Shown here piece by piece: positions 3,172-62,196 of a stretch of DNA of 64,000 nt. Numbering within the stretch: the first letter of the stretch is position 1; each line of letters opens with the position of its first letter. The stretch covers positions 62,001-126,000 of the IMG/VR virus record IMGVR_UViG_3300010389_000001, one strand, 5' to 3'. Under the pieces are notes generated by a model that was not told where the DNA came from, searched no databases, and saw only the letters and a program-made list of their open reading frames with translations. The DNA comes from a virus. The position numbers and the translations under genes were made by a program.

Positions 3172-4773
3172 ATGTCGAAAGAAGTTTCGTTTGGAGCCGA
3201 GGCAAGAGCGGCTCTGCAAGAAGGTCTTGATATTCTTGCTAATGCTGTTAAGTCAACTCTGGGCCCAAGAGGGAGGCACGCCGCCATTGATAGGGGCTAT
3301 GGACCGCCTCTTATTACAAAAGATGGCGTAACTGTAGCACGCTCCATTACGCTTAGCGATAAGCTAAAGAATATGGGAGCTTCTCTAGTAAAAGACGTTG
3401 CATCATCCACTAATTCTTTAGCTGGCGATGGAACGACTACTGCTACGGTTCTTGCGCAAGCCATCTATAATGAGGGCGCTAAGATGGTTGCCGCTGGGCA
3501 CAATCCTGTCCTAATTAAAAGAGGTGTTGATTTAGCTACGGAGCGCGTAACATCAAGGCTTTTGGATGTATCAATTGACGTTTCTAGTCAGGAGATGCTT
3601 GAAAGTATTGCGGTTATTTCTGCAAACAATGATGACGCATTAGGAAGGCTAATTGCAGAAGCAGTTGCAGCAGTAGGCGAGAACGGACTAATCTCTGTCG
3701 AAGAGTCAACAGGAGCGGATACGACGGTTGCTTACTCCGACGGCCTATCGTTTGACCGTGGTTATATCCATCCAATTTTCGTAACGAATCAGGATAGATA
3801 TGTAGCGGAACTTGAGAATCCTTTTATCCTTTTCTACGATGGAAAGATAACAAATACAACAGACATAATGAAGGTAGCAACAGAGGTATCAGAAACAAAG
3901 AGACCGCTTCTGGTTGTAGCTCAAACAGTTATGGATGAAGCACTTGAGACTCTAAAGCTAAATAAGCAGCGCGGAGCACTGGCTTCCTGCGTGGTTAGAG
4001 CGCCTGGGTTCGGAGATATTAGGCGCGATATGCTGCTGGATCTAGCCGCTGTGACCGGAGGAAAGGTTCTTTCCTCTGATACTGAAGATCAGCTTTTGAG
4101 CGTCAGTCTATCAGATTTAGGCCAAGCAAGAAGAGTTCTGGTAACGCGAGATACCACTACTATTATTGACGGTGCTGGTGATGATGAAGAGGTTAGTCGC
4201 AGAGAAGAATCTATTAAGCAAAGAATGAGAACAGAAGCTCTTGAGACATACGAGATTGCTGCCTTTAGAGAGAGGCTGTCAAAGCTTGCTGGGTCTGTTG
4301 CCGTCTTTAGGGTGGGCGGAGTATCTGAGGCAGAAGTCAAGGAAAAGAAGGATAGAGTCGAGGATGCCATCAACGCCGTTAAGGCGGCTATAGAGCAGGG
4401 CGTTGTTCCGGGCGGCGGCTCCGCTCTCTTGCACTGTGTTGAGGATCTAGAGGCATTTATAAAGAGCGGGGACTTTATGCACGAAGAGGTTGTTGGAATG
4501 GAGGTTGTATCTCGTGCAATCAGAGCGCCATTTTCGCAGATACTAAATAATGCCGGCCTTGATTACCACCTTCATATGGAGACAATAATTAGGACGGACA
4601 ACATACAGTCAGGCTTTAATGCATTGAGGATGCAGCTTGAGGATAATATGGTTGAGGCTGGTGTAATTGATCCAGTTAAAGTTGTTCGAACTGCTCTTGA
4701 GAATGCAGCATCATCTGCCGGCACGCTGTTGACAACTCAGGTTGCTATTTTTGATGAAGAAAACCCGAAATAA
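3172..4773 (+). CDS. groEL: Phage-encoded chaperonin GroEL (Hsp60)
   Basis: ATP-driven folding chaperonin that forms double heptameric rings. Signatures are clear: KSTLGPRGR near residue 25, KDGVTVA near residue 49, GDGTTTATVLAQAI near residue 83 (nucleotide loop with the catalytic Asp), ISANND in the equatorial part, and RVEDAINAVKAAIEQGVVPGGG near residue 395, which contains the second ATPase Asp. At 533 aa it is slightly short, and the C-terminus ends DEENPK without the usual Gly-Gly-Met tail. No GroES gene is visible in this window, so it may use host GroES or one encoded elsewhere. The ribosome-binding site is TAGGAGA at 3161. Likely role: folding of phage virion proteins. Confidence 0.96.
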   Translation: MSKEVSFGAEARAALQEGLDILANAVKSTLGPRGRHAAIDRGYGPPLITKDGVTVARSITLSDKLKNMGASLVKDVASSTNSLAGDGTTTATVLAQAIYNEGAKMVAAGHNPVLIKRGVDLATERVTSRLLDVSIDVSSQEMLESIAVISANNDDALGRLIAEAVAAVGENGLISVEESTGADTTVAYSDGLSFDRGYIHPIFVTNQDRYVAELENPFILFYDGKITNTTDIMKVATEVSETKRPLLVVAQTVMDEALETLKLNKQRGALASCVVRAPGFGDIRRDMLLDLAAVTGGKVLSSDTEDQLLSVSLSDLGQARRVLVTRDTTTIIDGAGDDEEVSRREESIKQRMRTEALETYEIAAFRERLSKLAGSVAVFRVGGVSEAEVKEKKDRVEDAINAVKAAIEQGVVPGGGSALLHCVEDLEAFIKSGDFMHEEVVGMEVVSRAIRAPFSQILNNAGLDYHLHMETIIRTDNIQSGFNALRMQLEDNMVEAGVIDPVKVVRTALENAASSAGTLLTTQVAIFDEENPK

Positions 4774-15009: not shown

Positions 15010-15660
15010 ATGTATACGGCCAGTTTTGTTGACCATATCAAGAATACTATATTCATCTTATTTTTTTCGATTTACTCAGCCACCTTAAGTGCTGAGGCGG
15101 CTGAGCCTTATAAGAGTTCATTTATCAAGCATGTCAGAACCGAGACCGTTATGGACAAAGTTCTGGTTATCGAGAATGGAAGCTCTAGGCTCAAAACGCC
15201 GGTCACCATATCTTATGAGGTGGGTAAGGGCGACTATATTCGACAAAAGTATACCGAAGAATATATCAAAAATAACTTTGCATTATCGCACATGATTGTT
15301 ATGGATGAGCTAAAGGGTATTGGTGTTACTCCAATCGAGTGTCGCTCTCCCTACGAGTTGCATATTTTTATCCTTCATCCAGACACAATGTACTCTTCGA
15401 ATTTATTTCAGAAATTCAGAGAAGAATATAACTACCATTATAAAATTCACGCCTTTTTTGATGCAACGGTTGAAGTAAAGGGGCACAACAATATTCTTCT
15501 ATCTGACATGGGCGACTGGGAAAATTACCAATCTATCCAGCATGAACATGCTCATTATTGGTGGCTCCGGTATTGTCTAAAGAAGCATTATCCATCTTCA
15601 GAAGACTTTGCTCGTTTGATAGAGAGAAAAGCGGAGACAACTTACAATGAATATTTTTAG
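15010..15660 (+). CDS. Secreted HExxH zinc metallopeptidase-like protein
   Basis: The N-terminus has a basic start, a hydrophobic core (TIFILFFSIYSATLSA) and a small-residue cleavage region near AEAAEP, so it is a probable Sec signal peptide. The mature part ends with QHEHAHYWWLRYC near residue 176: HEHAH fits the HExxH zinc motif, and E-R-K-A-E-T later could supply a third ligand. It is 216 aa. A phage-encoded exported zinc peptidase could act in the periplasm or cell wall at lysis or for exclusion of other phages; this is inference. Its 3' end overlaps the IMPDH gene by 14 bases. Confidence 0.68.
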   Translation: MYTASFVDHIKNTIFILFFSIYSATLSAEAAEPYKSSFIKHVRTETVMDKVLVIENGSSRLKTPVTISYEVGKGDYIRQKYTEEYIKNNFALSHMIVMDELKGIGVTPIECRSPYELHIFILHPDTMYSSNLFQKFREEYNYHYKIHAFFDATVEVKGHNNILLSDMGDWENYQSIQHEHAHYWWLRYCLKKHYPSSEDFARLIERKAETTYNEYF

Positions 15661-16741
15661 GCCAGGAGACTCTCTCGAAAAGTTAGATGCCCCACCGGCT
15701 TTTGATGATGTGCTGCTTGTTCCAAGATACTCTGGGCTTGCCTCTCGATTGGAACCGAATATTAGCACTTCACTTTCCACCTCTTTCGCCTTAGAGGTTC
15801 CGGTCGTATCTTCTCCGATGGATACTGTTACCGGATCTCAGATGGCTTCTGCTATCGGCAGAGAGGGCGCAATGGGTGTGGTTCACAGGTTTATGTCTCC
15901 AGAAGATCAGGCCGGAGAGCTTCACCGTGTATCTGACTTAAATCAAGGCCCAGGAGATCCTGCTCCACTTGCCTTTGCGGTCGGAGTGGGCTCTTCTGAG
16001 AAAGAGAGATTCGATAAAGTTTATTCTCAATTTGAATCTGCCATCGATTGGGTATCCATAGACGTTGCAAACGGTCACTCTAAGTATATGGCCGAAATGC
16101 TAAGCTGGATAAAGGATCGAGTATCACCTGATACAAATATTATGGTTGGCAATGTTGCGACTGGCGATGGGTACAAGTTTCTTGCTGATCGTGGCGCCGA
16201 TGCAATTCGCGTTGGGATAGGTGGCGGAAGCATCTGTAAAACCAGAATTATGACAGGCTTTGGCGTTCCTACTCTTGCTTCAGTTGCGGATTGTTATAAG
16301 GCAAAGTTGAGCGGCAATTATAACTCGTCAATTATTGCCGATGGAGGAATCAGGTATCCATCCGATTTGGTTAAGTCTTTGGCCTTCGGGGCAGACGCAA
16401 TAATGGCTGGAAGAATATTTGCGGGAACCTTAGAGTCACCTGGCGAAACAGTTATTGTTGACGGCGTAAAATCAAAAACCTATAGAGGGATGGCGTCAAG
16501 AGAGGTTCAGGAGGACAAGCGCGGAGGCTTAAAGCCTGGAACCTGCGCAGAGGGTGTATCAACCCATATTCCAATAAAGGGTAAGGCCAGATATATTCTA
16601 GAAGAGTTCTCGGGCGGTTTGAGGTCTGCCATGACTTACTGTAACGCAAGAGATATTGCAGAACTCAGAGAGAATGTTAGGTTCATTAGAATGTCTCCGT
16701 CATCTCTCGACGAGTCTCATGCATTTGGAACAAAAGTTTAG
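15647..16741 (+). CDS. guaB: IMP dehydrogenase without CBS domains
   Basis: Oxidises IMP to XMP, the committed step to GMP. Motifs: [13 protein letters not shown] near residue 18, [16 protein letters not shown] near residue 51, [20 protein letters not shown] near residue 230 (phosphate site), [17 protein letters not shown] near residue 195 with the catalytic Cys, [12 protein letters not shown] near residue 282, and [15 protein letters not shown] near residue 325. At 364 aa the two CBS domains are absent, as in phage and some bacterial short forms. GMP reductase has a related fold, but [13 protein letters not shown] and GGLRSAM favour IMPDH. With adenylosuccinate synthetase it covers both branches from IMP. 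Confidence 0.88.
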
Positions 16742-18364: not shown

Positions 18365-19510
18365 ATGGCTAACTCACAGATTAGAGCGCGACTTGATTCC
18401 GCTATTTCAAAACTTATCTCTTTTCAGCCGCTTTACGGTGAGGTTTTCCTTCATCTAAACAAGCGCGAAAACAAGGAGATTCCAACGATGGGCGTTGGAG
18501 TTATCCGTCGCGTAGATTTGGCTCTTTACTACAATCCAGATTTCGTCGCAGGACTTAGCTCAACTGAGCTTAGAAGCGTCCTTAAGCATGAGGCTTTGCA
18601 CGTTCTTCTGCATCATCTTACGCGAGCAAAGCACTTTGCTTACAATCCTCGTGGATACAACATTGCTGCAGATTGTGCAATTAACTGTCATATTGAGGGG
18701 CTTCCAGATGGAGCCCTTTATCCAAAGCAGTTTAACCTCGATGATAACCAGTCTTCTGAGTTCTACTACGAGAAGCTAAAGAAGGAAGCAGAGGACAAGC
18801 ATGGAGGAGACTTCGACAAGGCGATTGAAGGCAAGGGAGATACTGTAGACGACCACGGTATGTGGGGCGAATTTGACGACGATATTATCGAAGAGAAGGT
18901 CCGCAATATCGCAGAGAAGGCTATTAAGGAACAGGAGAAGAAGGGCTGGGGAAGCATTCCTGGCGGCCTTGCAGGTCAGATTATTGCTGCAAACAAGCCT
19001 GTTGTAAACTGGAAGAAGGAAGCTCGTTGGTTTATCAACAAGGTTGTTATGATGGGTCGTCGCAGTACCCGTATGCGCCCTAATCGTCGCTACGGAACAT
19101 CGCAGCCTGGGAGCAAGAGAAACTACACTAGTCGCCTTCTTGTTGCGTTTGATACTTCTGGCTCTGTTTCAAATAAGCAACTTGAATACTTTGCTACAGA
19201 GCTAAACGGTATGATTGACCACGTTCAGGCTGACTTTATTCAGTTTGATACCCAAATCTATGGAAAGCCAGAGCCTTACTCAAAGCGCGCTGCCAAGCTG
19301 GACATTAAGGGTCGAGGAGGCACTTGCTTTGCTCCAGTCATTCACATGGCCGATGAAGAGAGGTATGATGGTCTAGTTATCTTTACGGACGGTTATGCTC
19401 CATTCCCTGCAAAGCCAAAGACCCGTGTGATGTGGGCTGTTTGTGAGCGTGATTCAGCCGTAGAGTTTCCATACGGAAAGAAGGTTGTGATCGAAGAAAA
19501 GTCTCGATAA
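18365..19510 (+). CDS. VWA-like protein with metallopeptidase domain (DUF2201 type)
   Basis: Partner of the MoxR ATPase. The N-terminal domain has LKHEALHVLLHHLTRA near residue 75, an HExxH zinc motif, and AADCAINCHIEGLP beyond it. The C-terminal domain (about residue 255 on) has LLVAFDTSGSVSNKQL, a DxSGS MIDAS-like metal site of VWA domains, and VIFTDGYA. 381 aa. This N-terminal peptidase-like plus VWA pairing downstream of a MoxR ATPase is widespread in bacteria and large phages, with unclear substrate. An acidic linker (about residues 140-170) separates the two. A terminator follows. Confidence 0.85.
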   Translation: MANSQIRARLDSAISKLISFQPLYGEVFLHLNKRENKEIPTMGVGVIRRVDLALYYNPDFVAGLSSTELRSVLKHEALHVLLHHLTRAKHFAYNPRGYNIAADCAINCHIEGLPDGALYPKQFNLDDNQSSEFYYEKLKKEAEDKHGGDFDKAIEGKGDTVDDHGMWGEFDDDIIEEKVRNIAEKAIKEQEKKGWGSIPGGLAGQIIAANKPVVNWKKEARWFINKVVMMGRRSTRMRPNRRYGTSQPGSKRNYTSRLLVAFDTSGSVSNKQLEYFATELNGMIDHVQADFIQFDTQIYGKPEPYSKRAAKLDIKGRGGTCFAPVIHMADEERYDGLVIFTDGYAPFPAKPKTRVMWAVCERDSAVEFPYGKKVVIEEKSR

Positions 19511-47952: not shown

Positions 47953-49246
47953 AGAAATAGCAAAATTCATTAAGAATGAAAAAGAGATAGCTGAGTATAA
48001 GCTATCTCTTTTGCGTGCATCAAAAAGGAGAGGCTATACAAATAGGCTTATCTCAATGGAGGAAGAGTATATAGAGTTTGACTTTGAGTCTATAGGGTTT
48101 GATACGATCGAAGAGGCGAGAGAAGCTCTAATCTTATTTCGTATCGACAGACCGATGTTCAATAATAAATATTCAACAGTAGATGATGGCAAAAGAGCAT
48201 CCGCCTCTCAAGTCGAAAATCTGTTTAAAAGAATATCCTTTTTAAGCAATTCTTATAAGACGCTCATAGAAGACAGGATCTCCTCTGATGAGATCGACTC
48301 CTATGTGGCTGCAATCGTAGGAAAAAGCAGTGGGGCAATATTCGAAAAAGCAAAGGCCAGGATACAGATAATTATTTGCTCGTTATCTAGGCATATATTT
48401 GTTGAGACAAAAAAGCTTCGGGAAAAAATAGGCGACACACTGACAAGGGGGCAGTCCGTAGAGCTAAAGAAGATTGTAGACTCGCTCTATGAAAGTTCAA
48501 TTTATGAAGTTTTTAAATATTATAATGATTCTATAGATCAAACTTATAGTCTTCTAAATTCAAATAAAAATAGCGATTTTATTTTATCTATTTATCCGCT
48601 CACTAATCTGCTCGATAAGTATTCAGAAGATAGCTTCAAGATAGAAAGAATGCTAAACGTGGATAAGAACTTTTTCTCAAAGACGGGTAGGCCTATATCA
48701 AGAAAGTCTACGGAAAGGGGGTGGGGCATAAAGACTCCTCTGAACCGTGTAGGCAATGAAACGACAGAAGTTCTATACCGAACCATTTATTGTAACGACG
48801 ACACTTGCCTGGACAAGATTCTTGAGAGGGGGTTTTACAATGCAAGAATATCCGAAGGAGAATATGTAAAGGCGATATCGACAAAGCCGGTCTGGAACAT
48901 ATTGGCAGATAATCTAGATGATTCTTTGGCTTTAAAAATGTCTGATCTTTTAGGGATTAATCTTGAGTCGATATCCGCATCGAAGCTGTCTGATCCAGAG
49001 AAGATTAAGGCAATAAACTTATCTAATAATGTAATCGATATTGACTCAAGTCGCAGTAAAATACTTATTGCAGCAACAAGATCAGAGGCCTCAAAGCTTA
49101 ATGAGGCCAAAAGTTACATAGAGTTACTAATAAAAGAATTAAAAGAAGAATACGATAATGAATTCTGTGGTGGCAAGAATACTGTTGATAAACAGGGCTT
49201 CAGAAGAGATAAGATAAAAGAGATTATTGGGAGCATAGTGAGATGA
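47945..49246 (+). CDS. Hypothetical helical protein, 433 aa
   Basis: No family recognised. It overlaps the sigma factor gene by eight bases and the giant-protein gene by four. Mostly helical, Lys/Glu rich, with the region KLREKIGDTLTRGQSVEL and a central part NEVLYR-like (TTEVLYRTIYCNDDT). No membrane segment or nucleotide motif. Coupling suggests it works with the giant protein downstream. Confidence 0.68.
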   Translation: MNEEIAKFIKNEKEIAEYKLSLLRASKRRGYTNRLISMEEEYIEFDFESIGFDTIEEAREALILFRIDRPMFNNKYSTVDDGKRASASQVENLFKRISFLSNSYKTLIEDRISSDEIDSYVAAIVGKSSGAIFEKAKARIQIIICSLSRHIFVETKKLREKIGDTLTRGQSVELKKIVDSLYESSIYEVFKYYNDSIDQTYSLLNSNKNSDFILSIYPLTNLLDKYSEDSFKIERMLNVDKNFFSKTGRPISRKSTERGWGIKTPLNRVGNETTEVLYRTIYCNDDTCLDKILERGFYNARISEGEYVKAISTKPVWNILADNLDDSLALKMSDLLGINLESISASKLSDPEKIKAINLSNNVIDIDSSRSKILIAATRSEASKLNEAKSYIELLIKELKEEYDNEFCGGKNTVDKQGFRRDKIKEIIGSIVR

Positions 49247-52200
49247 TAAGCTCAAAGGAAGCGTTAAGCATATTTAAGATTTTTAAGTCACTGAAGTGGC
49301 TTAGAGAGAACTCCTCCAATTACATGGAGGTGATTAATCCGGCCGTAGAGATAGTTAGTATAGCGGGGTTTGACGAAGGAAGCACGTATAGCGAAGACTC
49401 TGAGGGTCTTGAGCCATATGGCGGTAACTTTGGCCCGATGTTCCCAGACGACTTTATTAATTCTTCAGAAGTTATTTTTTTTGACGATAGATCATCTGCG
49501 GAAGACTTTGGGGCTGTTTCAAGCCGATGTAACGAAATCATAGAGAAGCTAAAAGAAGTCGATGATGTAATCAAAAAGATTCGTGACCTTGGATTAGATG
49601 CAGAATTAAATGTAGATGAGATATCGCAAAAGAAAGAAGAATTAGATAAAAACTGCAAGCTCCTGAAGGAAAACCTTGAGGCTCTTGGTGAGGAGGGCAG
49701 GGAAAGATTTTCCATAGTGCTGGAGGATGGCGCAAATGCTGTTATGGATGAGGTTTTTGAGGCTCCGCAATATGCCACTCAGATAATTGCAGAAACATTC
49801 AAGAAGAATAAGCCCGAAGCTCCAGTCGAGCCATCCGAGCCCGCTGAATCCGAAAAGACTCCCGAGGAAGTAGCGGCGGAAACTGAGGCTACGGAGGTTG
49901 CAGAGGGTGAAGAGGGTGCGGCTCCTCCGCAGGAAGATATTGAGGCGGCATATAGCAAAACATTGCTTGAGAGCTATCGCTCCCTGGATACAGAGGAATA
50001 TAAAAGACTATTCTCTCCTAGAAAGAAGGGGCCGCCTACATTTCCAAATCTAGATGGAAGCTCCGTTTCGGACCCTACAACAAGAGATAAATACATGTCT
50101 TTTGTGGCCAAAAAAAACGAGAAAGATTCTGTCTATGAAAAAATCAAAGGCATAGAGGAACGCGGAAAATATTCTGAAGAATACGGCGGAAAAAGCTTTC
50201 TGGAGTTTGATGGGTCCATATTTTACGGCAAGTTTGAAAACATGGAAGATGCCATAGGCATAAATATAATAGAAAGCTCGATTGGCACTGATCCACTAAT
50301 TGAGGTAGATGACGAAAAGGTGGCTGCGACACTAAAGGTCGTAACAGACGAGATGGAGCGAATTATAGAACTTTCAAAAAAGCTTTACCCACTGACAGGC
50401 AAAGTTGCTAGGGAGGTTGCTGAGGACATAAACATTCGCAGAAGAATTTTGATTAACGATATTGAATATCTATTCGCCTCGATAAACCAAAGAGATAAAG
50501 AGGTCGCATCTTACATGGCGGAAATGTATCCTAAATCAGACATTTTGACAAAAGTTTTAATAAAGCATACGTTTATGGATCCAGAAATAGAATCGGGCAG
50601 CCTTTTGCGAGATCCTGAATTAGAGAGGTCATTCATAAAAGCCGTCTTATCTGTGGTTAGGCCAGAACTTGTTAGCAATATCCTGCATAAAAAGAAAGAG
50701 CGAGACTTTCGTGAAAAGTATGGTGTCAGATGGGTCGACGATGGCTTACGGTCCGAATATAATGACGTTGTAGCAAAAAATGCTATCAAAAAAATTAAAT
50801 CTTCCTTTTACGACGAAAGGATAGACTTGGTCACAAAAGACTTATACGATCTTAGCGCGAGCTACCTTGTGGCTGCCACAAGTGATCGTAAGCTCGACAA
50901 GGCTATGGTAAAAAAAGTACTAAAACTCTGCTCTGTCTGTGGCAAAGAAGTATGGTCCGACAATTACCTCAGAAGACGCAATGTTAAGGCGAGCGAAAAA
51001 GCTTCCAATAATCTGCAAGTGGAGCAATATTCGCTTTTTAGAGATATTGGATTCCTCGAAGGAAGATCGCCAATGATAACATTGGAGGAGCTGATTTCTC
51101 ATGGCAGATTTGTTCTATCGAGCGAGGATTCAGAGAGCATAAGGGAAGCTCTAGACTCTATGGGTCTTGGTGCTAGGATATCTGCCGGCAAAACGTGGGA
51201 AGAAATAGAACAAGATTATTATAGCGGCAATTATGCCAAAAATATAGAATCTATAATGCGCAAAAATTACGCCCTCAAAAGTCTTGGAGGCAAAAAACTG
51301 CCGGCGACCTTTAATCTTGCGGTCTCAAGATTTCGGTGCCCATTTGGCTCAGAGAAGGAAGCTGGCGCGACCGAAGCTGGGCAGTCTGCGCAATTTGACA
51401 CAAAGAGTGCTCTAAGAATTATTGAGAGAGCCAACAAATCTTTATATGCCAAGGATAAAGTAAAAGATAAAATTCTTGCAATACAAAATAAAGTTTTGGA
51501 GAGCGGCGCAAGCCATGACGAAGCAGTAAAAGCTGTTTCCAAAGTTATAGATGAGCTTAAATGGCTTGAGGACAAGTCTAAAACGGCAGCCAAGGCAGCG
51601 CTAAAGGGTCAGGTATCTTTTCGGCAGGGTGGCGCTAAAGATGAGTGGAATTGCGGCTTAGGATATAACGATCAAGCCCAAAGGGGCCTTGAGCTATACC
51701 TTGAGGAAGCAGAAGGCACTGGAGCTATAAGCAAAGAGCAAAAGGAAAAAATCATTGCATTATCTAGCGAGCAAAGCTTGGGCGGCTTCAAATTCTCTGC
51801 GAGATCCTTTGTATGCCCAACAGAAATAGACGCCTCAGGAGAGGATGCTCTAGACCTAATTGATAAGCACAAAATGCTTGTAGTTCCGATACGCTCTAAG
51901 GTCGGCCAAACAGAGCACCCGGCAACAGCTGCCGTACTAGGAGGGGGAAAGATACTTAGCTTACGCTGCGGAGCCCCCACTAGCATATCTCAATTTGATA
52001 GAATGAAGTTTTACGAGAACATCAAGGATCTTGTAGATGAGAAAAATCATGATGATTATATGAACTTAGTCAATTCTATGATCGAGCTTGGGGTAGACGT
52101 TACTGATATTCTACCATTTACGATGCTTAAGCATGCTAATAACGAAGATCTTACAGACGTGACTGCTGGATTGCTGCTTTCTGATGGAGGTATATCTGAT

Positions 52201-55200
52201 GCCGCTATTTTCAGAATGAACAAAATCTCTGGTCTGCTAAAGCAGGCTATGGCCACCACGGGTACAGGCGCCCAACGCGGCCAGCTAAATGTTTCCAAAT
52301 ATTTTGATTATATACAGAATATAGAATTAAACTGTATTCACGGGCACAGCTTTTCTCCAGGGCAGTCTGTGGCGTTCACCAAAGAGTTTATAGATATAAA
52401 CTTCGATCTAAAAACCAAGGAGCAGATAGTTAGAAGAAATATATTGGCAATGTCTGGAGAGGAGCAGCTGAAGGGAATTCTGGAGCTTAGCGGTAGCCCC
52501 ATTATCAGGAGGCTAAATATTGGCGAGAAAGCAAGGCCGTATTCTTCATATAAATATGGTGACAGAATAGCTGACATAGGATTTGGCGGACCAGACGCTG
52601 AAGGTAGCGATCTTATATATGCAGATAAAGCCGTAGGGAAAAACATATCGATGTATCCTGGGGCAGATGAAATTTATACAATTCCTAATAAAGCGAGCAT
52701 AATAAGGACAAAGGAAAGTACAGTGACTCTCCGCTCGGAATACGGCAGAGGCAAGTCGTCTTCGACAGTCGGCAAATCTGATGATAAAGGCATTACGGAC
52801 ATCATGAATACCGTCAAAGATCAGGGCCCCTCTCCTGATGCCTTACTAGAATCCTCCGGCGGGCAGGGACTAAGTAAAGCGTCGATAATGGCAGGTATGA
52901 ACAGTGCGAAACTTCAGGAAACTATTATTCTAGCTTTAATTCAGAGCAATATAACCACAATTCAGGAGCTTTTACTTACCGCAACATCCACAAGCAAGGA
53001 GGATGTATCGTTTTTCTCGCCTCGTCTGGCAGGCAAAACAATATCAGAAAAGATCGGCTCAAAAGAGTTTTTGGATGACCTAAGGGGCCTAATTGATTTT
53101 GTATTCAGAGAAAAGCTTTCCGAAGATGCCCTGGTAATGCTGGGTGAAAAGGGTCAGGCCGAGGATGGACTAAAAGAGAGCATCTACAGCAGTGTTAAGG
53201 AAAGAATTATTCGAGACATAGGGTCTCAGGAGGTTGCTTATGCATATGCCTCTAGAAAAGTTCTGCTTAATTATTTTTACGAAGTAATCATAAGTAGTTT
53301 TAAAAATCTCGCAGGAAGCCTGGGTAACGAAGATTTTTCGGTATCCGTCGAAGCTATAGGCTCTCTGACGCCCGAAGAGCTGTCGAATAAACTTCCAAGC
53401 TTTTTCTCACTAAAATCTATCGAGGAGTTCGAGGTTTCAGATTCAGTATCAGATTTTGCAAAAATTCTGACAGACCCCAAGGGAAGTCCCGACCAGATGC
53501 CGAAGCCTATGAAGGCAAAGGTAATGAACATAACAGAGCTATGGTTTGGAAAGCAGCTGGTTATTTCGGCTACTGCCTTTTATATGGCAGAGAGCTTGCT
53601 AAATATATATGATAGATTCTTCAATAAAGAATCTGTAGATTACCTTGGGTATAACCCGCTTAGAAATTTTCAGCCAAAAAGCGTTAACGATATAATCAAG
53701 ATAACTATAAGCGATGCTTTAATGGGAATCTCTGAAGAGCCCAGCAGGCTTTTGGGCATTTATGAGGAGATGATGGAAAAGGTTGCATCTGGGGAAGATA
53801 TGGGCCAGCTGGCAGGGTCAGCAGCCACACTTGTTCGCAAAATGAATGATGCGGCTAATGAGCTTGGAAGGGCTCATCACGGCGCTGAGTACGCCTGTAG
53901 AACGGAGAAGTATCAGGGGCTAGGCCTAGAATACATTAAAGCCGTGTATGCAGAGGCCCTAAGCATCGAAGATTCGAGCGACCCTCATGTTGAAAAAATT
54001 CTAAACAATGTTTTGACAAATACTAGAAATATTAGCGTATCGCTATCCGGTGAAGATGAAAAGTATTCAGGTTATTACGCTAAATTTGAAAATGCGCACA
54101 CACTACTCCCTCCAACTATGCAGAGGGTTCTGGAAGTAGATGAGAAAAAGACTAAGCTGACTAAACCAGTATATGTTATTTACGCCCCTGGCCTAAATGA
54201 TGATGAGCCATACCCCTTTGGAATAAGGCCGTCACTGGTCAAGGGTCGCCACTATGCATTTTTGGTTCACAATGATGACGCACAGTATTTTGATCAAATT
54301 ACTTCACTTGAAAGCAGCAAAAGCTTCGCTGAGGAACATGAGGCATTTTATCAAAATGGATGGAGGCTATATCTTGGCGGTAGAGAAGCCCAGGAAATTT
54401 ATAAAAATAAAGATATATCGACAAAGGGTAAAAGGGTTGAAAGCAGCAGTGTATCACTGATAGATCATCCTGGCACATATGTTGTATATGATGAGTTTGG
54501 AGATAGGTCTGGATATGCAAATGACACTGTAGGCTTAAGAACCGATGTAGGCTTTCATATTGGAACATACGGAGCGTGGACGAAAAAATCATCTTACGGT
54601 TCAGCATCTAAGTTTTACCCTCCCATGCCCAATGCTGACTGCGGAGTTGGCATTCCTATTCCAATAAGTATTCCGGCAGAGCTTGACAATTCCGAAAAAA
54701 AGGTGAGGGGCTCGACTATTAACATATCTATGTGTGATATTCCTGTCGATCTACCTACTGAGAGCGGAGAATTCTTGCGGGCAAATATTTCAGACCTTAT
54801 GATGAGAAGGCCCCCCGAGCTGGCTAGCAAGATGCTTTTCGAAATAGAAAAGGAGCACGCAAATTTCAAGAAGGAATATGGAGCCCTTTTTAGAAGCGGT
54901 GCCGATGAATCTGAGCTTGAAAAGTATAGAACTACCTATATTATGGGCGCCCGGCGCAAGATGGATCGATACAGAAGCCTGCCACTAAATGTGATTATGG
55001 ACTCTAACACAAGAACTCATATGAATGCCAAGGGAGGCTTCTCTCTGGCTCTAGGCGCTTATGCTCCCTTGGTTGACCCAATAACGGCCAATCGCTTCTT
55101 GACTCAAGAGTGCTTTTCTCAAGAATATGCAGGTCATCGCATATTTGGTGACGAAGTTGATCCTGAGTTGGCGAAAAGCTCCATAAGATCCTTCCTTGTT

Positions 55201-56217
55201 TCAGCATTCGGGTATGATAGACTGGCTGACATGATGAATGAGCACGACACTGCCGTTAAAACTGGCCGAAAAGTGGGCAACAAATATTCTATTTCCGGAG
55301 AGCCTATTGATGGCGAAGACCTCCTGTTTCCCGCCCAAATGCTCAATCTTCGCGGAGAAGGAGGCAAGGGGATATCTAAAGACGCGTTATATGGAGCCGG
55401 TGCGACTACTGACTTTGTATTGGATGAGGCAACGGGCAAGGTCATCCAGAAGGTTGTTGGCATCAAGGAGTTTGATAAGCTAAAGAGCATCTTGGGCCCG
55501 AAGCAATTTGCAATGCTCGCTCCATCTATATTCCCCATATTCGAAGACCCTGGAGACTTCTTTGGAGATGATTACGTTAAAAGAAATATGGACAAACTAA
55601 CCGGAGTTACCACTGCAAAGAGAGACATCGAAAAGCTTTTGGAGGCAATAAAAGCATCCTTTAATAAAAAGGGACAGGGAACAAGAATATCTGATAGATA
55701 CATTGAATCCTTCGACAAGACTTTGCCAGGCTGGAGATATCACACTCCGAAATTTAAACATCTTGGCGTAACGGGCTCTGGAGATATTGGGGGCGTAGAT
55801 TTTGAGGAGCCAAAGCTTGTTCTAGAAGGCCCTATATTTGCTCGCAGCAAAGAAGGGCCTCCTGGCAAAGAGAATATTCTGAGCTTTAGAGACTTGCTTC
55901 CGGTAGGAATCCAAAAGAGAATAACTCGTAAGCTGGGGATTTACGATTTTCATCATGCCTTAAACAAGTTCTTCTCCAAAAAATTCGAAGGAATAAAGGA
56001 TTACATCGAAGAATATAAGGAGACCTTAATAACAGCAGAGACATATGGCTTTGATAAAGAGTCCTTATTTGACCCGGCAGCCCTATTTAAGAAGACCTCT
56101 TCTATGATTATTTGCTCTGGCTTCATTAAGAAATCTGAAAAATACAAGACAGATATTTTCCAGGAGATTAGCATAAGGGACGAGGCAATTATCCGCCTCC
56201 TCGACAGGATCAACTAA
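49243..56217 (+). CDS. Giant protein of unknown function, 2324 aa
   Basis: The largest gene of the window, in one uninterrupted frame, and not recognised. Features seen: N-terminal coiled coil (near residues 105-150), acidic Pro/Glu/Ala linker (about 185-230), then a helical body. A set of Cys-bearing strands occurs at about residues 563 (LCSVCGKEVW), 695 (SRFRCPFGS), 803 (EWNCGLGYND), 856 (SFVCPTEI), 908 (SLRCGAPTS) and 1031 (ELNCIHGHSF), suggesting several zinc sites. The second half is mixed, with beta-rich stretches. No polymerase, helicase or nuclease motifs, no lysozyme or transmembrane block. It may be a virion-internal or tape-measure-like protein. Confidence 0.8.
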   Translation: MISSKEALSIFKIFKSLKWLRENSSNYMEVINPAVEIVSIAGFDEGSTYSEDSEGLEPYGGNFGPMFPDDFINSSEVIFFDDRSSAEDFGAVSSRCNEIIEKLKEVDDVIKKIRDLGLDAELNVDEISQKKEELDKNCKLLKENLEALGEEGRERFSIVLEDGANAVMDEVFEAPQYATQIIAETFKKNKPEAPVEPSEPAESEKTPEEVAAETEATEVAEGEEGAAPPQEDIEAAYSKTLLESYRSLDTEEYKRLFSPRKKGPPTFPNLDGSSVSDPTTRDKYMSFVAKKNEKDSVYEKIKGIEERGKYSEEYGGKSFLEFDGSIFYGKFENMEDAIGINIIESSIGTDPLIEVDDEKVAATLKVVTDEMERIIELSKKLYPLTGKVAREVAEDINIRRRILINDIEYLFASINQRDKEVASYMAEMYPKSDILTKVLIKHTFMDPEIESGSLLRDPELERSFIKAVLSVVRPELVSNILHKKKERDFREKYGVRWVDDGLRSEYNDVVAKNAIKKIKSSFYDERIDLVTKDLYDLSASYLVAATSDRKLDKAMVKKVLKLCSVCGKEVWSDNYLRRRNVKASEKASNNLQVEQYSLFRDIGFLEGRSPMITLEELISHGRFVLSSEDSESIREALDSMGLGARISAGKTWEEIEQDYYSGNYAKNIESIMRKNYALKSLGGKKLPATFNLAVSRFRCPFGSEKEAGATEAGQSAQFDTKSALRIIERANKSLYAKDKVKDKILAIQNKVLESGASHDEAVKAVSKVIDELKWLEDKSKTAAKAALKGQVSFRQGGAKDEWNCGLGYNDQAQRGLELYLEEAEGTGAISKEQKEKIIALSSEQSLGGFKFSARSFVCPTEIDASGEDALDLIDKHKMLVVPIRSKVGQTEHPATAAVLGGGKILSLRCGAPTSISQFDRMKFYENIKDLVDEKNHDDYMNLVNSMIELGVDVTDILPFTMLKHANNEDLTDVTAGLLLSDGGISDAAIFRMNKISGLLKQAMATTGTGAQRGQLNVSKYFDYIQNIELNCIHGHSFSPGQSVAFTKEFIDINFDLKTKEQIVRRNILAMSGEEQLKGILELSGSPIIRRLNIGEKARPYSSYKYGDRIADIGFGGPDAEGSDLIYADKAVGKNISMYPGADEIYTIPNKASIIRTKESTVTLRSEYGRGKSSSTVGKSDDKGITDIMNTVKDQGPSPDALLESSGGQGLSKASIMAGMNSAKLQETIILALIQSNITTIQELLLTATSTSKEDVSFFSPRLAGKTISEKIGSKEFLDDLRGLIDFVFREKLSEDALVMLGEKGQAEDGLKESIYSSVKERIIRDIGSQEVAYAYASRKVLLNYFYEVIISSFKNLAGSLGNEDFSVSVEAIGSLTPEELSNKLPSFFSLKSIEEFEVSDSVSDFAKILTDPKGSPDQMPKPMKAKVMNITELWFGKQLVISATAFYMAESLLNIYDRFFNKESVDYLGYNPLRNFQPKSVNDIIKITISDALMGISEEPSRLLGIYEEMMEKVASGEDMGQLAGSAATLVRKMNDAANELGRAHHGAEYACRTEKYQGLGLEYIKAVYAEALSIEDSSDPHVEKILNNVLTNTRNISVSLSGEDEKYSGYYAKFENAHTLLPPTMQRVLEVDEKKTKLTKPVYVIYAPGLNDDEPYPFGIRPSLVKGRHYAFLVHNDDAQYFDQITSLESSKSFAEEHEAFYQNGWRLYLGGREAQEIYKNKDISTKGKRVESSSVSLIDHPGTYVVYDEFGDRSGYANDTVGLRTDVGFHIGTYGAWTKKSSYGSASKFYPPMPNADCGVGIPIPISIPAELDNSEKKVRGSTINISMCDIPVDLPTESGEFLRANISDLMMRRPPELASKMLFEIEKEHANFKKEYGALFRSGADESELEKYRTTYIMGARRKMDRYRSLPLNVIMDSNTRTHMNAKGGFSLALGAYAPLVDPITANRFLTQECFSQEYAGHRIFGDEVDPELAKSSIRSFLVSAFGYDRLADMMNEHDTAVKTGRKVGNKYSISGEPIDGEDLLFPAQMLNLRGEGGKGISKDALYGAGATTDFVLDEATGKVIQKVVGIKEFDKLKSILGPKQFAMLAPSIFPIFEDPGDFFGDDYVKRNMDKLTGVTTAKRDIEKLLEAIKASFNKKGQGTRISDRYIESFDKTLPGWRYHTPKFKHLGVTGSGDIGGVDFEEPKLVLEGPIFARSKEGPPGKENILSFRDLLPVGIQKRITRKLGIYDFHHALNKFFSKKFEGIKDYIEEYKETLITAETYGFDKESLFDPAALFKKTSSMIICSGFIKKSEKYKTDIFQEISIRDEAIIRLLDRIN

Positions 56218-56592: not shown

Positions 56593-59256
56593 ATGCCAAA
56601 AGGTCCGTTCATATCGCTTCATAACCACACCGAGCTAGGCTCACCTCTCGATGGAATGAATGATGTAAAGGATTTATTCGTAAGAGCAAAAGAGGTGGAT
56701 CATCCGGCTGTAGCGGTTACAGACCATGGTACGATGACCGCAATGTATGATGCTTATCTCGCATCACAGGAAACTGGCGTAAAGTTAATCCCAGGAATGG
56801 AGGCTTATTTTGCTGATGATCTAGAGAATAAAAAGAGCCACCACCTTGTTTTGCTTGCGCAAAACCAAAAGGGTTACGAGAATATTCTTACCCTAAATTA
56901 CAAAGCTTTCCAAAATCAAGTCGCCGGATACATGGGAAAGAAGACCCCCAGAATTACATGGGAGCATATTCGGGATCACAATGAGGGGGTTATAGCTCTC
57001 ACGGCATGTTCAAATGGCCTTATCGCAAAAACCTTAATTACAGAGCAAGATGAAGCAAATGCCCTAAGGTATATCTCTATGTTTAAGTCTATTTTTGGAG
57101 ATAGATTTTTTCTTGAACTTCAGCCTCATGCTCTACATGCTGTGGGTAAAAATGGAAAGGAAGTAAATCAGCAAAAGCTGAATCGCTCTCTTCTAAGAAT
57201 ATCAAGAGATTATGATATCCCCTATGTAATTACTTGTGATGCTCACTATAGAGACAAAGAACATGCAAAGTATCACGACTTTATGCTTGCAATCAAGGAT
57301 AAAAAGGCCGTAGATGATCCGGATCGCTTTAGATACGGCGTTCAAGATATGTACCTCAAAACACATGAAGAAGTTATAGACTTCTTTGGACGTGATATTG
57401 CTGAAGTCGGCATGCAAAATACAATAAAGATCATGAATTCATGCCAAGATCCGCATTACATTGAGCCACAAGGGCCTCGGCTTCCCGCATTTCCCGTTCA
57501 AGATCAGGAGGATTATTCGGAGTTCTCAGATTGGAAGGAGAAGAGTCGGTCCACTATTCCAGAGGATCAGTCTTATCTTCGCTACAAATGTATCGAGGGC
57601 TTTAAAGAGAAGCTGTCACACTTATCCGAAGAAGATAGGGAACTTTATTGGGATCGGGTAAAGATGGAACTTTCAGTTTTGGAGGACAAGAACTTTTCAT
57701 CTTATATGCTGATCGTTTCCGATTATATTAACTGGGCCAAACAAAGAATGCCAGTTGGAGACGGAAGAGGGAGTTCGGCCGGATCCCTTGTCGCTTACCT
57801 AACAGGAATTACCGGCGTGGACCCAATTGAATACGATTTGATCTTCGAAAGGTTTCACAATAATCAAAAGAAGTCTTTCCCAGATATTGATACTGATTTT
57901 TCAGATCCTTCTCTGGTAAAAGAATACATTAAAGAAAAGTATGGCGAAGATAGAGTTGCGTCTATTTCAAACTGGAGCACTCTCTCTCCAAAGGTCGTAA
58001 TTAAAGATGTTGCCAGAAGCCTACGGCTTGGTGGCGATAAAACTGCTGCATTTAAGATTGCAAATCACATCACATCAATTATGCCCGATGCAAAGACCCT
58101 TGAGCAGGCGATGAGCGACAGCTCTCAGTTTGATGCTTACATGAAACAGTATCCAGAGCTTTATGAGTATGGAGAAAAGCTGCAGAATCTAACCAGAAAC
58201 TGGTCTGTACATGCCGCAGGAATGGTTATTGGAGAAGAACCGCTTCATAAGACCGTCCCGCTTAGAATCGATGATGAAGGCGGCGTCGTAACTCAGTGGG
58301 AAAAGAATCGCTGTGAAACAAATGGTCTAATTAAAATGGACCTTCTCGGCCTAAAGACCCTCACTGTTATCGATAATACTTTTAAGCTTATACAGTCTTC
58401 AACCGGAGAGAGCTTATCAACTGATGATATCGATCTTAACGACCAAGAAGTTTATAAGATGCTAGGTCGCGGAGAAACATCTGGTGTATTTCAGCTTGAG
58501 TCATCTCTTACTCCATTCTGCATAAAGCTAAAGCCAAACTGTATTGAGGATATCTCTGCCATTAATGCAATCGGAAGGCCCTCCTGTCTTCCGGAGGAAA
58601 GAAAGAAGTATGCAAAAAGAAGACTTGGCCTTGAGCCTACAAAGTATGACCATCCCAAGCTAGAAAGAGCGCTAAAGAAAACTTATGGAATTCTTGTTTA
58701 CGAAGAGCAGGCCATGTTTATTGCGCAAGACTGTGCCGGCTGGGACCTAAACCAGGCTGATTCTCTAAGAAAAATCAGCAAGCTAAAGGGCAAGGATCCA
58801 GATCTTGTGCTTAAGACCGAAGCAAACTTTGTTAAAGATTGCATGTCGCACTCCGGAATGGACTATAAAACTGCATGCCTAGTTTGGAAGCGGTATATCG
58901 AGGTTTTAGGAGGCTATGCGTTCAATAAGTCATTGCACTTTTCTGAGAAAGTAAGTATAATAAGAAACGGGGAGCCTTTAACCCTTGATATTCAAGACGT
59001 TAAAAAAGGCGACCTTGTACCTTCGAGAGACGAGAAAACAGGTGAAGACCTTCTGATTGAAGTAAAAGGCAATCATTACCACGGAAAACTGCCCGTACTG
59101 AAAGTTACGCTAGAAACTGGAGAAACTGTAACATGCACAAAGAATCACAAATTCAGAACCACAACCGGGGAAATGCTGCCCCTATGGCTAATCCTGGAGG
59201 CAAACATGGAGATCGTTGTTTCTGCGGAAAAGAATCAAAAACAAAGGGAGGCCTAG
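56593..59256 (+). CDS. dnaE: DNA polymerase III alpha subunit, N-terminal part with split-intein N half
   Basis: Replicative DNA polymerase (family C). The PHP domain starts with SLHNHTELGS (residues 9-17) and TDHGTM. The catalytic palm has GDGRGSSAGSLVAYLTG near residue 396 and SFPDIDTDFSD near residue 427 with the two Asp; LIKMDLLGLK near residue 578 gives the third. After GGYAFNK (residue 779) the host protein stops and the intein begins (S780), 108 residues, ending at TAG 59254. The rest of the polymerase is at 60219-61364. AAGGAG precedes the ATG. The extein total would be about 1120 aa, the normal size of DnaE. Confidence 0.93.
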   Translation: MPKGPFISLHNHTELGSPLDGMNDVKDLFVRAKEVDHPAVAVTDHGTMTAMYDAYLASQETGVKLIPGMEAYFADDLENKKSHHLVLLAQNQKGYENILTLNYKAFQNQVAGYMGKKTPRITWEHIRDHNEGVIALTACSNGLIAKTLITEQDEANALRYISMFKSIFGDRFFLELQPHALHAVGKNGKEVNQQKLNRSLLRISRDYDIPYVITCDAHYRDKEHAKYHDFMLAIKDKKAVDDPDRFRYGVQDMYLKTHEEVIDFFGRDIAEVGMQNTIKIMNSCQDPHYIEPQGPRLPAFPVQDQEDYSEFSDWKEKSRSTIPEDQSYLRYKCIEGFKEKLSHLSEEDRELYWDRVKMELSVLEDKNFSSYMLIVSDYINWAKQRMPVGDGRGSSAGSLVAYLTGITGVDPIEYDLIFERFHNNQKKSFPDIDTDFSDPSLVKEYIKEKYGEDRVASISNWSTLSPKVVIKDVARSLRLGGDKTAAFKIANHITSIMPDAKTLEQAMSDSSQFDAYMKQYPELYEYGEKLQNLTRNWSVHAAGMVIGEEPLHKTVPLRIDDEGGVVTQWEKNRCETNGLIKMDLLGLKTLTVIDNTFKLIQSSTGESLSTDDIDLNDQEVYKMLGRGETSGVFQLESSLTPFCIKLKPNCIEDISAINAIGRPSCLPEERKKYAKRRLGLEPTKYDHPKLERALKKTYGILVYEEQAMFIAQDCAGWDLNQADSLRKISKLKGKDPDLVLKTEANFVKDCMSHSGMDYKTACLVWKRYIEVLGGYAFNKSLHFSEKVSIIRNGEPLTLDIQDVKKGDLVPSRDEKTGEDLLIEVKGNHYHGKLPVLKVTLETGETVTCTKNHKFRTTTGEMLPLWLILEANMEIVVSAEKNQKQREA
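58930..59253 (+). other. Split intein, N-terminal half (DnaE-N intein)
   Basis: Begins with Ser1 right after the conserved AFNK of DnaE: SLHFSEKVSIIRNG then VKKGDLV (block A) and LETGETVTCTKNHKF (block B, TxxH-like). It is followed by an ordinary stop, so the two halves are made separately and splice in trans. Ser1 instead of Cys1 is less common. Both halves have the expected blocks. Confidence 0.85.
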
Positions 59257-60215
59257 GCAAGCATAAGGCAAAGTGTGTTGTTTACATTAAAAAAGCTTTG
59301 GAGATCGGTGAAATTATCCAATGCTCCCTTTGCGATCATAAGGCCAAGACTCTCAGGCGACATATAGAAAAAGAACATAAGGACATCTCCGTTGATCAGT
59401 ATGTTGAGTTGTACGGAAGCTATATGGCTCCAATTACAAGAGAAAAGAAGAAAAGGGCCGCCAAGCAAAATGGCTCTTGGTTTGCAAAGCTTTCTGCCGA
59501 TGAGAAGGCCGAAGTAAGGGCTGGCTGGATTGAGAATGGAAAGAAAATTAGCGATTCTATTATGAGCAATCCCGAAGAAAGAAAAAGAAGAGCTTCTATG
59601 CTGAAGGAAATGTGGGATGACCCGGATAAGGCGGCCATTTTCCGGGAGAATCAGAGCGAGACGGCAAAAAAGACATCCGCAAGAGCTGATGTTCAAGCCG
59701 CAAGGGCGGAAAGGTTAAAAAACTGGAGAGACAACAACCCCGAAGATTTTTATAATAAATGCACAAGAGCCATGCATAAAACGTGGACTTCCAAGCCTGA
59801 GAAAAGACTTCGGGCTTTCGCCCAATCAATAAACCCTTTATTTAAGGGAAATCAGCAGGTTAACTCGAACAAGCATTTTTTTACAAACAAAACCTGCAGA
59901 AAGCAAGTCGACCTTATTGACAAAGAGAATAAAATAATCATAGAGTTAGACGGCCCGCACCATTTCGATCCGATCTTTGGCGATGAAATCCTAAAGATTA
60001 ATAAGAAAAAGGATAAAGAGCTAGACAAGTTCTGTTTAGATGGCGGCTATCTTCTAATAAGAGTCTCGCATACGGAATACGATTACAGAAAGTCTTCCAA
60101 CGACTTTAGTACACGTACTTTAAATAAGGTCAGGGAAATACTGGACGCTGGCGCGCCTGGCGTTTATTATCTTGGCGAAGAGTACCTCGAAAAAAATATG
60201 CTTCCAAAGGAGTAG
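59184..60215 (+). CDS. Vsr/DUF559-like homing endonuclease between split-intein halves
   Basis: Free-standing nuclease gene placed between the two halves of dnaE, as in fractured genes described by Dassa and colleagues. I start at ATG 59184; ATG 59133 is in frame but lies deeper in the N-intein. N-terminal Cys/His fingers: DRCFCGKESK with KHKAKC, and CSLCDHKAKTLRRH. A basic middle with KKTSARADVQAARAERLKNW. The C-terminal nuclease core: CRKQVDLIDKENKIIIELDG then PHHFDP near residue 265, and GGYLLIRVSHTEYDY, of PD-(D/E)XK/Vsr type. 343 aa. It presumably cleaves unfilled dnaE genes at the intein site to spread. Confidence 0.85.
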   Translation: MANPGGKHGDRCFCGKESKTKGGLGKHKAKCVVYIKKALEIGEIIQCSLCDHKAKTLRRHIEKEHKDISVDQYVELYGSYMAPITREKKKRAAKQNGSWFAKLSADEKAEVRAGWIENGKKISDSIMSNPEERKRRASMLKEMWDDPDKAAIFRENQSETAKKTSARADVQAARAERLKNWRDNNPEDFYNKCTRAMHKTWTSKPEKRLRAFAQSINPLFKGNQQVNSNKHFFTNKTCRKQVDLIDKENKIIIELDGPHHFDPIFGDEILKINKKKDKELDKFCLDGGYLLIRVSHTEYDYRKSSNDFSTRTLNKVREILDAGAPGVYYLGEEYLEKNMLPKE

Positions 60216-60218
60216 CTC

Positions 60219-60329
60219 GTGGCTAAAATCATTTCTGCAGATAATGTAGGCGAAGAACATACTTATGATCTTGAGGTTGATCACCCTGATCATCAGTATT
60301 ATTTGGCGAACGGAATTTTAACTTCTAAT
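60219..60329 (+). other. Split intein, C-terminal half (DnaE-C intein)
   Basis: MAKIISADNVGEEHTYDLEV then HQYYLANGILTSN: block F and block G ending in the required Asn, with Ser as the first extein residue (SHS). It is 37 residues long, the usual size of a natural C intein. It pairs with the N half ending at 59253. Confidence 0.87.
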
Positions 60330-61364
60330 TCGCACTCTATTTCTTACTCACACATTTCTTTTTATACCGCGTGGCTTCGATGTCATTATCCAACGCAGTT
60401 TATGTGTGCTTTGCTAAACTCTGAAGATCCGAACTCCGATAAGGCGCAGGAATATCTTTCGGAATGCAAAAGCATGGGCATTAACATTGTCGCTCCCAAC
60501 GTAAACGACTCTGTTGGAAATTACAAAGTTCTTGAAAATATGGTTATTTCAACCGGGCTGTCTGCAATCAAGGGGGTTGGAGATAAGGCTATTGAATCGA
60601 TTGTAAATATGCAGCCATATAATTCTTTTATAGAGTTTGTATCAACAAATGACAGTCGCACGGTTGGAAAAACAGTTATTCAATCCCTGGCAAAAGCGGG
60701 CGCCTTAGACTTTACGGGTTTAACGAGAATGGATATGCATGATAACTATCAGAAGTATCGATCCAAGGCAAAGAACGCTATAAAGAAAGAGGTTGAAAAG
60801 GATATTCTTGCGGCCCATCCCGAAATAAAGAAGATAACAAAAGATGTGAGGGATCGCTATTTTGAGCAATTTGATATTCTTCCGGATTCGGAAAGATTCA
60901 ACAATATCGTTTCTGCCCTAACTTATACTCCGTCAGAAGATGAATGGGACAGAAAGGATATCTTGCTGTACGAGAGAGAAGTCCTTGGACGCTCTATATC
61001 CGGCAGCCTTCATGAAGTTTTCTCAAGCTTCTTTTCTGGAGGGCCTTTTGTTACGCCGCTAAAGAATATCGAAGAGCAAAGCAATGGTGCCAGAATAAAA
61101 ATCGAGGCTATAATTAAGACGAAGATTAAAGAATTTAAGATTAAGAACGGCAAAAATGTTGGAAGAAAGTTCGCCAAGTACTTGGTGGAAGATGTTAATG
61201 GCGATACATGCGGCTTAACCCTTTGGGCCGATGACTATGATAAATATAAATCCGTTCTAAAAGAAGGTCTGCCTATTAAGGCCATATGCAAGGTAAACGA
61301 ATATATGGGCCAGAAAGACCTTGCGCTATCATCACTTGAAAGAGTTTATGGGAGAAAGATATGA
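60219..61364 (+). CDS. dnaE: DNA polymerase III alpha subunit, C-terminal part with split-intein C half
   Basis: Starts at GTG 60219 with a perfect AAGGAG site. The first 37 residues are the C intein; the extein resumes SHSISYSHISFYTAWLRCHY, the DnaE finger/thumb region. IKGVGDKAIESIVN near residue 110 is the helix-hairpin-helix, and the C-terminal OB fold carries ARIKIEAIIKTKIKEF and LTLWADDYDKYK. Trans-splicing with the first half rebuilds the whole polymerase. 381 aa in total. The clamp-binding and tau-binding ends are short, as in many phage DnaE. Confidence 0.92.
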   Translation: MAKIISADNVGEEHTYDLEVDHPDHQYYLANGILTSNSHSISYSHISFYTAWLRCHYPTQFMCALLNSEDPNSDKAQEYLSECKSMGINIVAPNVNDSVGNYKVLENMVISTGLSAIKGVGDKAIESIVNMQPYNSFIEFVSTNDSRTVGKTVIQSLAKAGALDFTGLTRMDMHDNYQKYRSKAKNAIKKEVEKDILAAHPEIKKITKDVRDRYFEQFDILPDSERFNNIVSALTYTPSEDEWDRKDILLYEREVLGRSISGSLHEVFSSFFSGGPFVTPLKNIEEQSNGARIKIEAIIKTKIKEFKIKNGKNVGRKFAKYLVEDVNGDTCGLTLWADDYDKYKSVLKEGLPIKAICKVNEYMGQKDLALSSLERVYGRKI

Positions 61365-61870: not shown

Positions 61871-62196
61871 TTAGAGCCGTAGGTAACAAGAGGCTGGATC
61901 TTAACGATGCAGAATATGACTATTATCTTGAAATAAAAAAAGCCGTAGGAGATGCTGATTTTCTGGGGCTATTTGATACGGATAAAAATGGTTTAATTAC
62001 GGGGATAATGCCGCCGGTTGATAAGGGCATAAATGTAATGGTTATTTATTTCGTTTTAAACGTTATGATAAATCAAAGAATAAGGATTTTAGAATCCTCT
62101 ATTAAAAAAGTCGAAAGTTTCGTAGACCAGATCGGCGCGCTGCCTAATATAATTGAGAGGCTGGAACGGCTCGAAAGAAAGGAGGAGGAAAAATGA
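61867..62196 (+). CDS. Hypothetical protein with one membrane segment and coiled coil
   Basis: GTG 61867 overlaps the previous stop. After a polar front comes VMVIYFVLNVMI, a likely membrane helix, then a coiled coil (IRILESSIKKVESFVDQIGA) ending in Lys/Glu. 109 aa. It could tether replication proteins to the membrane; unproven. Confidence 0.6.
   Translation: MIRAVGNKRLDLNDAEYDYYLEIKKAVGDADFLGLFDTDKNGLITGIMPPVDKGINVMVIYFVLNVMINQRIRILESSIKKVESFVDQIGALPNIIERLERLERKEEEK

Follow-up and report, generated by a model that had tools for sequence, protein, structure and literature searches.

Can a polymerase gene that stops in the middle of a conserved motif, and resumes only beyond another gene, still give rise to a single enzyme, and what would have broken it there? 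This question is raised by positions 56593-61364 of a 64,000-nucleotide stretch of virus DNA (positions 62,001 to 126,000 of the 232,533-base IMG/VR record IMGVR_UViG_3300010389_000001; hereafter the window, whose positions serve for all coordinates), where the gene of a DnaE-type DNA polymerase III alpha (Pol III alpha) is interrupted by a split intein at FNK|SHS. Three genes follow one another on the + strand: the DnaE N-half with the N-part of the intein, a free-standing nuclease gene, and the C-part of the intein with the DnaE C-half. An initial annotation had proposed this anatomy, and its polymerase halves, intein parts, intervening nuclease and outer limits are all borne out by open reading frames (ORFs) and domain matches. 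The locus is very probably a fractured polymerase gene, in which a split intein that is mobile, and is served by a free-standing homing nuclease of its own, occupies a phage DnaE at FNK|SHS.

The N-half gene (56593..59256, from its ORF and domain matches) encodes the PHP domain, the palm and most of the fingers (PF02811, PF07733 and PF17657), followed by the intein N-part. Its N-extein (56593..58929, by reading of the sequence and from the contiguous AFNKSHS of the relative L002) ends in GGYAFNK. The intein N-part (58930..59253, 108 codons, from intein matches) opens with SLHFSEKV, bears TKNHKF (TxxH) as its block B, and closes at a TAG stop at 59254-59256. The C-half gene (60219..61364, again from ORF and domain matches) has a GTG start and its own strong Shine-Dalgarno sequence, AAAGGAG, read directly at 60206..60212. 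It encodes an intein C-part of 37 codons (60219..60329, from intein matches), ending in GILTSN with a penultimate Ser and a terminal Asn, and then the remaining fingers, a helix-hairpin-helix and the C-terminal region, the C-extein being read from Ser+1 onward (60330..61361, SHSISYS). No promoter or terminator signal stood out clearly from shuffled sequences.

Among solved proteins, the joined intein halves find their best match in the cyanobacterial DnaE inteins (phmmer 1.2e-13 with the single sequence), and a family profile reaches the DnaE inteins at 1e-20, gp41-1 at 9.4e-13 and NrdJ-1 at 9e-4. The NCBI model of the intein C-terminus scores above its cut-off (6.7e-5), that of the N-terminus weakly and below it (0.0039). 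The structure predicted for L039, a naturally contiguous relative, has the intein fold (pLDDT 79), with Npu DnaE (4kl5) as its best structural match. Because these matches to solved inteins and to a curated model are accompanied by 54 split loci and by an empty in-frame site in L002, the intein is not a chance match. Position 1 and position +1 are both Ser, as first annotated; together with TKNH in block B and the terminal Asn (N137) these are features of a class 1 split intein, and the splicing residues are conserved in 7 aligned family members. The penultimate His of class 1 is missing from the window intein, its place being taken by Ser; this His is not obligatory, as cyanobacterial DnaE inteins also have Ser or Ala there (PMC5874633). 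The division into two genes falls near the usual endonuclease position, into parts of about 100 and 37 amino acids (aa), the usual sizes of split-intein parts being taken from PMC11923092. Serine at the splice junctions is also found in the cysteine-less split inteins of the Aes123 PolB1 type (PMC11923092), from which the window intein differs in keeping one Cys (CTKNHKF) and in not being close in sequence. It resembles gp41-1 and NrdJ-1 in being a phage-type naturally split intein of the same size, although these reside in other host genes and are more distant in sequence than the DnaE inteins.

From such sequence features we infer trans-splicing of the two halves. It would be seamless, since L002, which is 94% identical over the N-half, has AFNKSHS uninterrupted, in frame and free of any insertion; the exact AFNK-SHS junction of the initial annotation thereby finds its empty allele. 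In the proposed course of events, the three genes would be translated separately and the intein halves would bind each other; Ser1 would make an N-to-O acyl shift, Ser+1 would take over the N-extein, and the terminal Asn would cyclise although no His precedes it, as happens in cyanobacterial DnaE inteins, leaving a polymerase joined as AFNK-SHS. The ratio of nonsynonymous to synonymous substitution rates (dN/dS) is 0.02-0.03 in the exteins, where dS is estimable, and 0.14-0.23 in the intein and nuclease: the exteins are under strong purifying selection, and the intein and nuclease are constrained too.

The longest ORF of the nuclease (59133..60215, 360 aa) lies in another frame and overlaps the end of the N-half gene. 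Within the overlap, dN/dS is 0.12 in the intein frame and 1.5 in the nuclease frame. Because only the intein frame is constrained there, and structure and conservation of the nuclease begin later, ATG 59184 is its probable start rather than 59133. In its architecture, the nuclease joins a Ros/MucR-like zinc finger to a Vsr-fold domain. The zinc-finger segment (59217..59390, from conservation and profile matches) combines CxC...H...C with a Ros/MucR-like CxxC...H...H; the best Pfam match among family members is 1.1e-8, and the PDB entry 2jsp is matched at 1.3e-5. The C-terminal domain (59793..60212, from conservation and structure match) finds Vsr endonuclease as its best Foldseek match (1cw0, prob 1.00; 1vsr, prob 0.98). 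Invariant across the family, numbered from 59133, are C64, C67, H77, E223, D260, D273-G274, H277-F278 and D294. The protein thus shares with Vsr endonuclease and DUF559 the fold and catalytic-type residues of its C-terminal domain, and differs from them in its fusion to zinc fingers and its location within a split intein. It matches phrog_559, a family to which PMC11878797 assigns a VSR domain; a search for nuclease relatives in an annotated phage collection gave no match.

Fractured genes, as Dassa and colleagues reportedly defined them in 2009, combine a split intein with a free-standing Vsr-like (EDxHD) endonuclease. That the locus is such a gene, as initially annotated, holds: a conserved enzyme gene is cut by a split intein, an endonuclease gene lies between the halves, and the endonuclease is of Vsr type in both fold and invariant residues (E223, D260, H277, D294). 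It departs from the genes that their list is said to contain (helicase gp41, IMPDH and ribonucleotide reductases) in having DnaE as its host gene and Ser as its nucleophile, which relatives replace by Cys or Thr. The gene list of Dassa 2009 aside, no report of a split intein in phage DnaE was found in the literature searched.

How widespread is the arrangement? Viral contigs were scanned with a polymerase and with an intein alignment, and repeats were removed before counting. This gave 54 distinct split inteins at FNK|SH, nearly all in phages; 37 begin with Ser, 14 with Cys and 3 with Thr, and all have a penultimate Ser. In bacterial and archaeal genomes, only 3 loci were encountered in about 85,000 species, on contigs of metagenome-assembled genomes, 2 of them under 4 kb. 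Thr at position 1 is seen in L054, L082 and L087, whose N-parts start at the FN[KA] site. Most gaps are filled by a nuclease ORF of 300-430 residues, and a single nuclease family accounts for 36 of 40 gap ORFs. Elsewhere the gap contains a LAGLIDADG protein (L099) or second-group Vsr/DUF559-type proteins (L085, L091, L097), which argues that the nuclease was exchanged while the site stayed. At the same FNK|SH site, phages including Rhodococcus phage Weasels2 have contiguous inteins, and by eye some of these include an HNH-like domain; L039 is contiguous yet nested among split members (97.4/100), and so looks re-fused. The Cys1 and Thr1 members, like the mobility of the element and its kinship with the cyanobacterial DnaE inteins, go beyond the initial annotation. 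With its natural Ser1, Cys1 and Thr1 variants, the family would allow splicing chemistry to be compared within a single split intein.

Does the element move? Evidence comes from L019, a split relative. At fourfold sites, window and L019 agree in 95 of 125 positions of the element (76%) and in 165 of 382 of the exteins (43%; Fisher p=1.6e-10), the exteins being near saturation at silent sites and the empty L002 equally far from the window (40-46%). The higher silent-site identity spans intein-N, nuclease and intein-C alike, and since silent sites are far more alike in the element than in the flanking polymerase, the element moved as a unit. In the C-extein tree, the window, the empty L002 and the split L019 stand together at 100/100 inside intein-less polymerases; L013 groups with L012 and L026 by its polymerase, not by its intein. 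Absence from a closely related allele and horizontal transfer, the marks of a homing element, are thus both observed, and it is the whole element that was transferred, as homing predicts. For the cutting itself, the Vsr-fold zinc-finger nuclease would cleave empty dnaE alleles near the site during mixed infections, and repair would copy intein-N, nuclease and intein-C together into the cut dnaE.

Several observations weigh against this reading. In Foldseek, the Vsr matches have modest E-values (1.8e-3), and the window protein alone scores below cut-off for DUF559 and Ros. The silent-site test concerns one genome pair and linked sites, and no clear co-conversion tract was found in the flanks of the insertion. 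The nuclease is absent from L038, L043, L044, L047, L056, L062, L075 and L082, and eight gaps are near-empty at 42-264 bases. Finally, Rossellomorea phage phiT1 (L036:2986-6268) and Rhodococcus phage Weasels2 (L034:1806-5559; gp101/gp102) each split DnaE between a pair of genes and bear no intein where it is divided.

The missing nucleases lend some substance to the best-surviving alternative, that the halves splice in a domesticated split gene inherited vertically, the nuclease being degenerate or irrelevant to mobility. Besides the eight loci without it, intein halves are separated by unrelated genes, including TnpB-like and methyltransferase genes, over 3.5 kb in L012 and 4.7 kb in L026/L030; the intervening genes of L026:8630-13310 are TnpB-like, TadG-like pilus-type (by eye) and methyltransferase. 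Since several relatives lack a nuclease, none is needed for keeping the split state. In the window and L019, however, an intact nuclease is under constraint (dN/dS 0.14) and moves together with the intein halves, as the silent sites attest, so that for this locus vertical domestication is unlikely.

The two-gene polymerases without an intein suggest that a polymerase of this kind may sometimes work without covalent joining, and a minimal split Pol III alpha has been described in jumbo phages (PMC7824862). Conceivably, then, the halves act unspliced as a non-covalent two-subunit polymerase, with the intein parts as mere remnants. Such remnants would hardly retain their nucleophiles, TxxH, terminal Asn and Ser+1 across divergent loci or stay under purifying selection, and the breaks of phiT1 and Weasels2 lie elsewhere, not in the middle of FNKSHS; this alternative is distinctly improbable. 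As for an assembly artefact or a frameshift error in a normal dnaE, to which a single metagenomic contig might tempt one, it can be rejected as next to impossible, given the same gene order in dozens of contigs and the separate start and Shine-Dalgarno sequence of the C-half.

If the fractured gene is indeed spliced, what hangs on it? AFNKSHS had been called an invariant active region. It is highly conserved, and the equivalent place in solved cellular Pol III alpha chains reads FNKSHA; it is not invariant (FNK, FNR, FNH or FNQ; SHS, SHA or SHG), and it belongs to a conserved motif of the fingers, not to the metal site. The motifs PDIDTDF and KMDLLGL, those of the catalytic aspartates in Pol III alpha, both lie within the N-half, upstream of the insertion. 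No second polymerase of family A, B or C (PF00136, PF00476, PF07733), and so no other full-length enzyme such as the initial annotation had warned of, was found in the 232.5-kb record, which may be incomplete. This agrees with the earlier claim that replication would depend on splicing, a claim tempered by the intein-less two-gene DnaE of other phages.

Where might such an intein have come from? By its sequence, the window intein is related to the split DnaE inteins of cyanobacteria, the workhorses of protein trans-splicing. With Npu and Ssp, its nearest solved sequences, it shares the host protein, a penultimate Ser rather than His, and the split point within the intein; it differs in having Ser1/Ser+1 instead of Cys1/Cys+1, in retaining a nuclease, in its separate clade, and in its site, the cyanobacterial Y|CFNKSHS lying 4 residues upstream of FNK|SHS. 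The exact cyanobacterial site is itself occupied by split DnaE inteins in some phages (L103, L108, L116 and L117); the one in L108 is 60% identical to Npu DnaE over the intein. These four join Npu and Ssp in a single clade (95.9/100), with the window intein outside, in a tree that includes two cyanobacterial sequences (Npu, checked against PDB output, and Ssp) and has weak inner branches. A sister relation between the FNK|SH family and this clade was not recovered firmly in that tree (relevant nodes 84.9/61 and 46.4/25). The intein halves of L103, L108 and L116 are separated by genes of phage structural type, LamG-like or tail-fibre-like ones in L108:20-5776 and L103:4543-10708. In L117:6497-9347, the intein N-part is fused in frame to a LAGLIDADG nuclease and the C-half begins in a different, overlapping frame, as if the intein had been split just behind its nuclease. 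L116:10788-12890 reads, in order, a cyanobacterial-type intein C-part, the four-residue extein CFNK, a contiguous HNH-type intein at FNK|SHS, and SHS; further inteins occur in upstream genes of the same polymerase. As L116 has inteins at both sites simultaneously, the two sites are distinct, and a sliding of the intein away from the cyanobacterial site need not be invoked.

Coexisting in phage dnaE are thus contiguous inteins with an embedded nuclease, an intein split just after it (L117), split inteins with a free-standing nuclease (the window), and splits that lack a nuclease and have unrelated genes in between (L012, L026, L103, L108, L116). This natural series in one protein, partly at an identical site, lays out stages on the way from a mobile element to a settled split gene. 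The origin of split inteins is still described as speculation (PMC5874633). One might tentatively suppose that phage dnaE was the arena in which split DnaE inteins arose, the cyanobacterial one being a captured branch of the phage pool; on that still speculative view, no break within a cyanobacterial genome would lie behind the latter. The phage relatives of the cyanobacterial intein are open to direct testing.

The FNK|SH site is not the only break in these polymerases. L019, L048, L075 and L086 have another split intein in the palm (GxxRG|SxxGS), so that their DnaE would need two trans-splicing events, and L041 has at least the C-half of that intein; the family thus includes polymerases requiring two or more splicing events for wholeness. 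In L022-L024, the palm site holds a contiguous intein about 450 residues long. In L019:3449-9593, two different split inteins divide DnaE into three genes, and each gap holds its own nuclease gene. Directly upstream of the window dnaE, a 2324-residue ORF (49243-56217) without a PHROG match has a diverged counterpart at the same place in L019. Elsewhere in the same phage, a RecA-like gene outside the window (L208:3187-4746; G000:C1:127686-129245) bears an apparent contiguous mini-intein at GDPS|C...HN|TSPGG. There are two GroEL-like genes, one in the window (3172-4773, phrog_5725) and one at L208:1539-3176 (by eye). The gene of IMP dehydrogenase, reportedly a fractured-gene host in other phages, is uninterrupted here (15647-16741), and an HNH endonuclease-type gene (phrog_1314) lies at 18365-19510.
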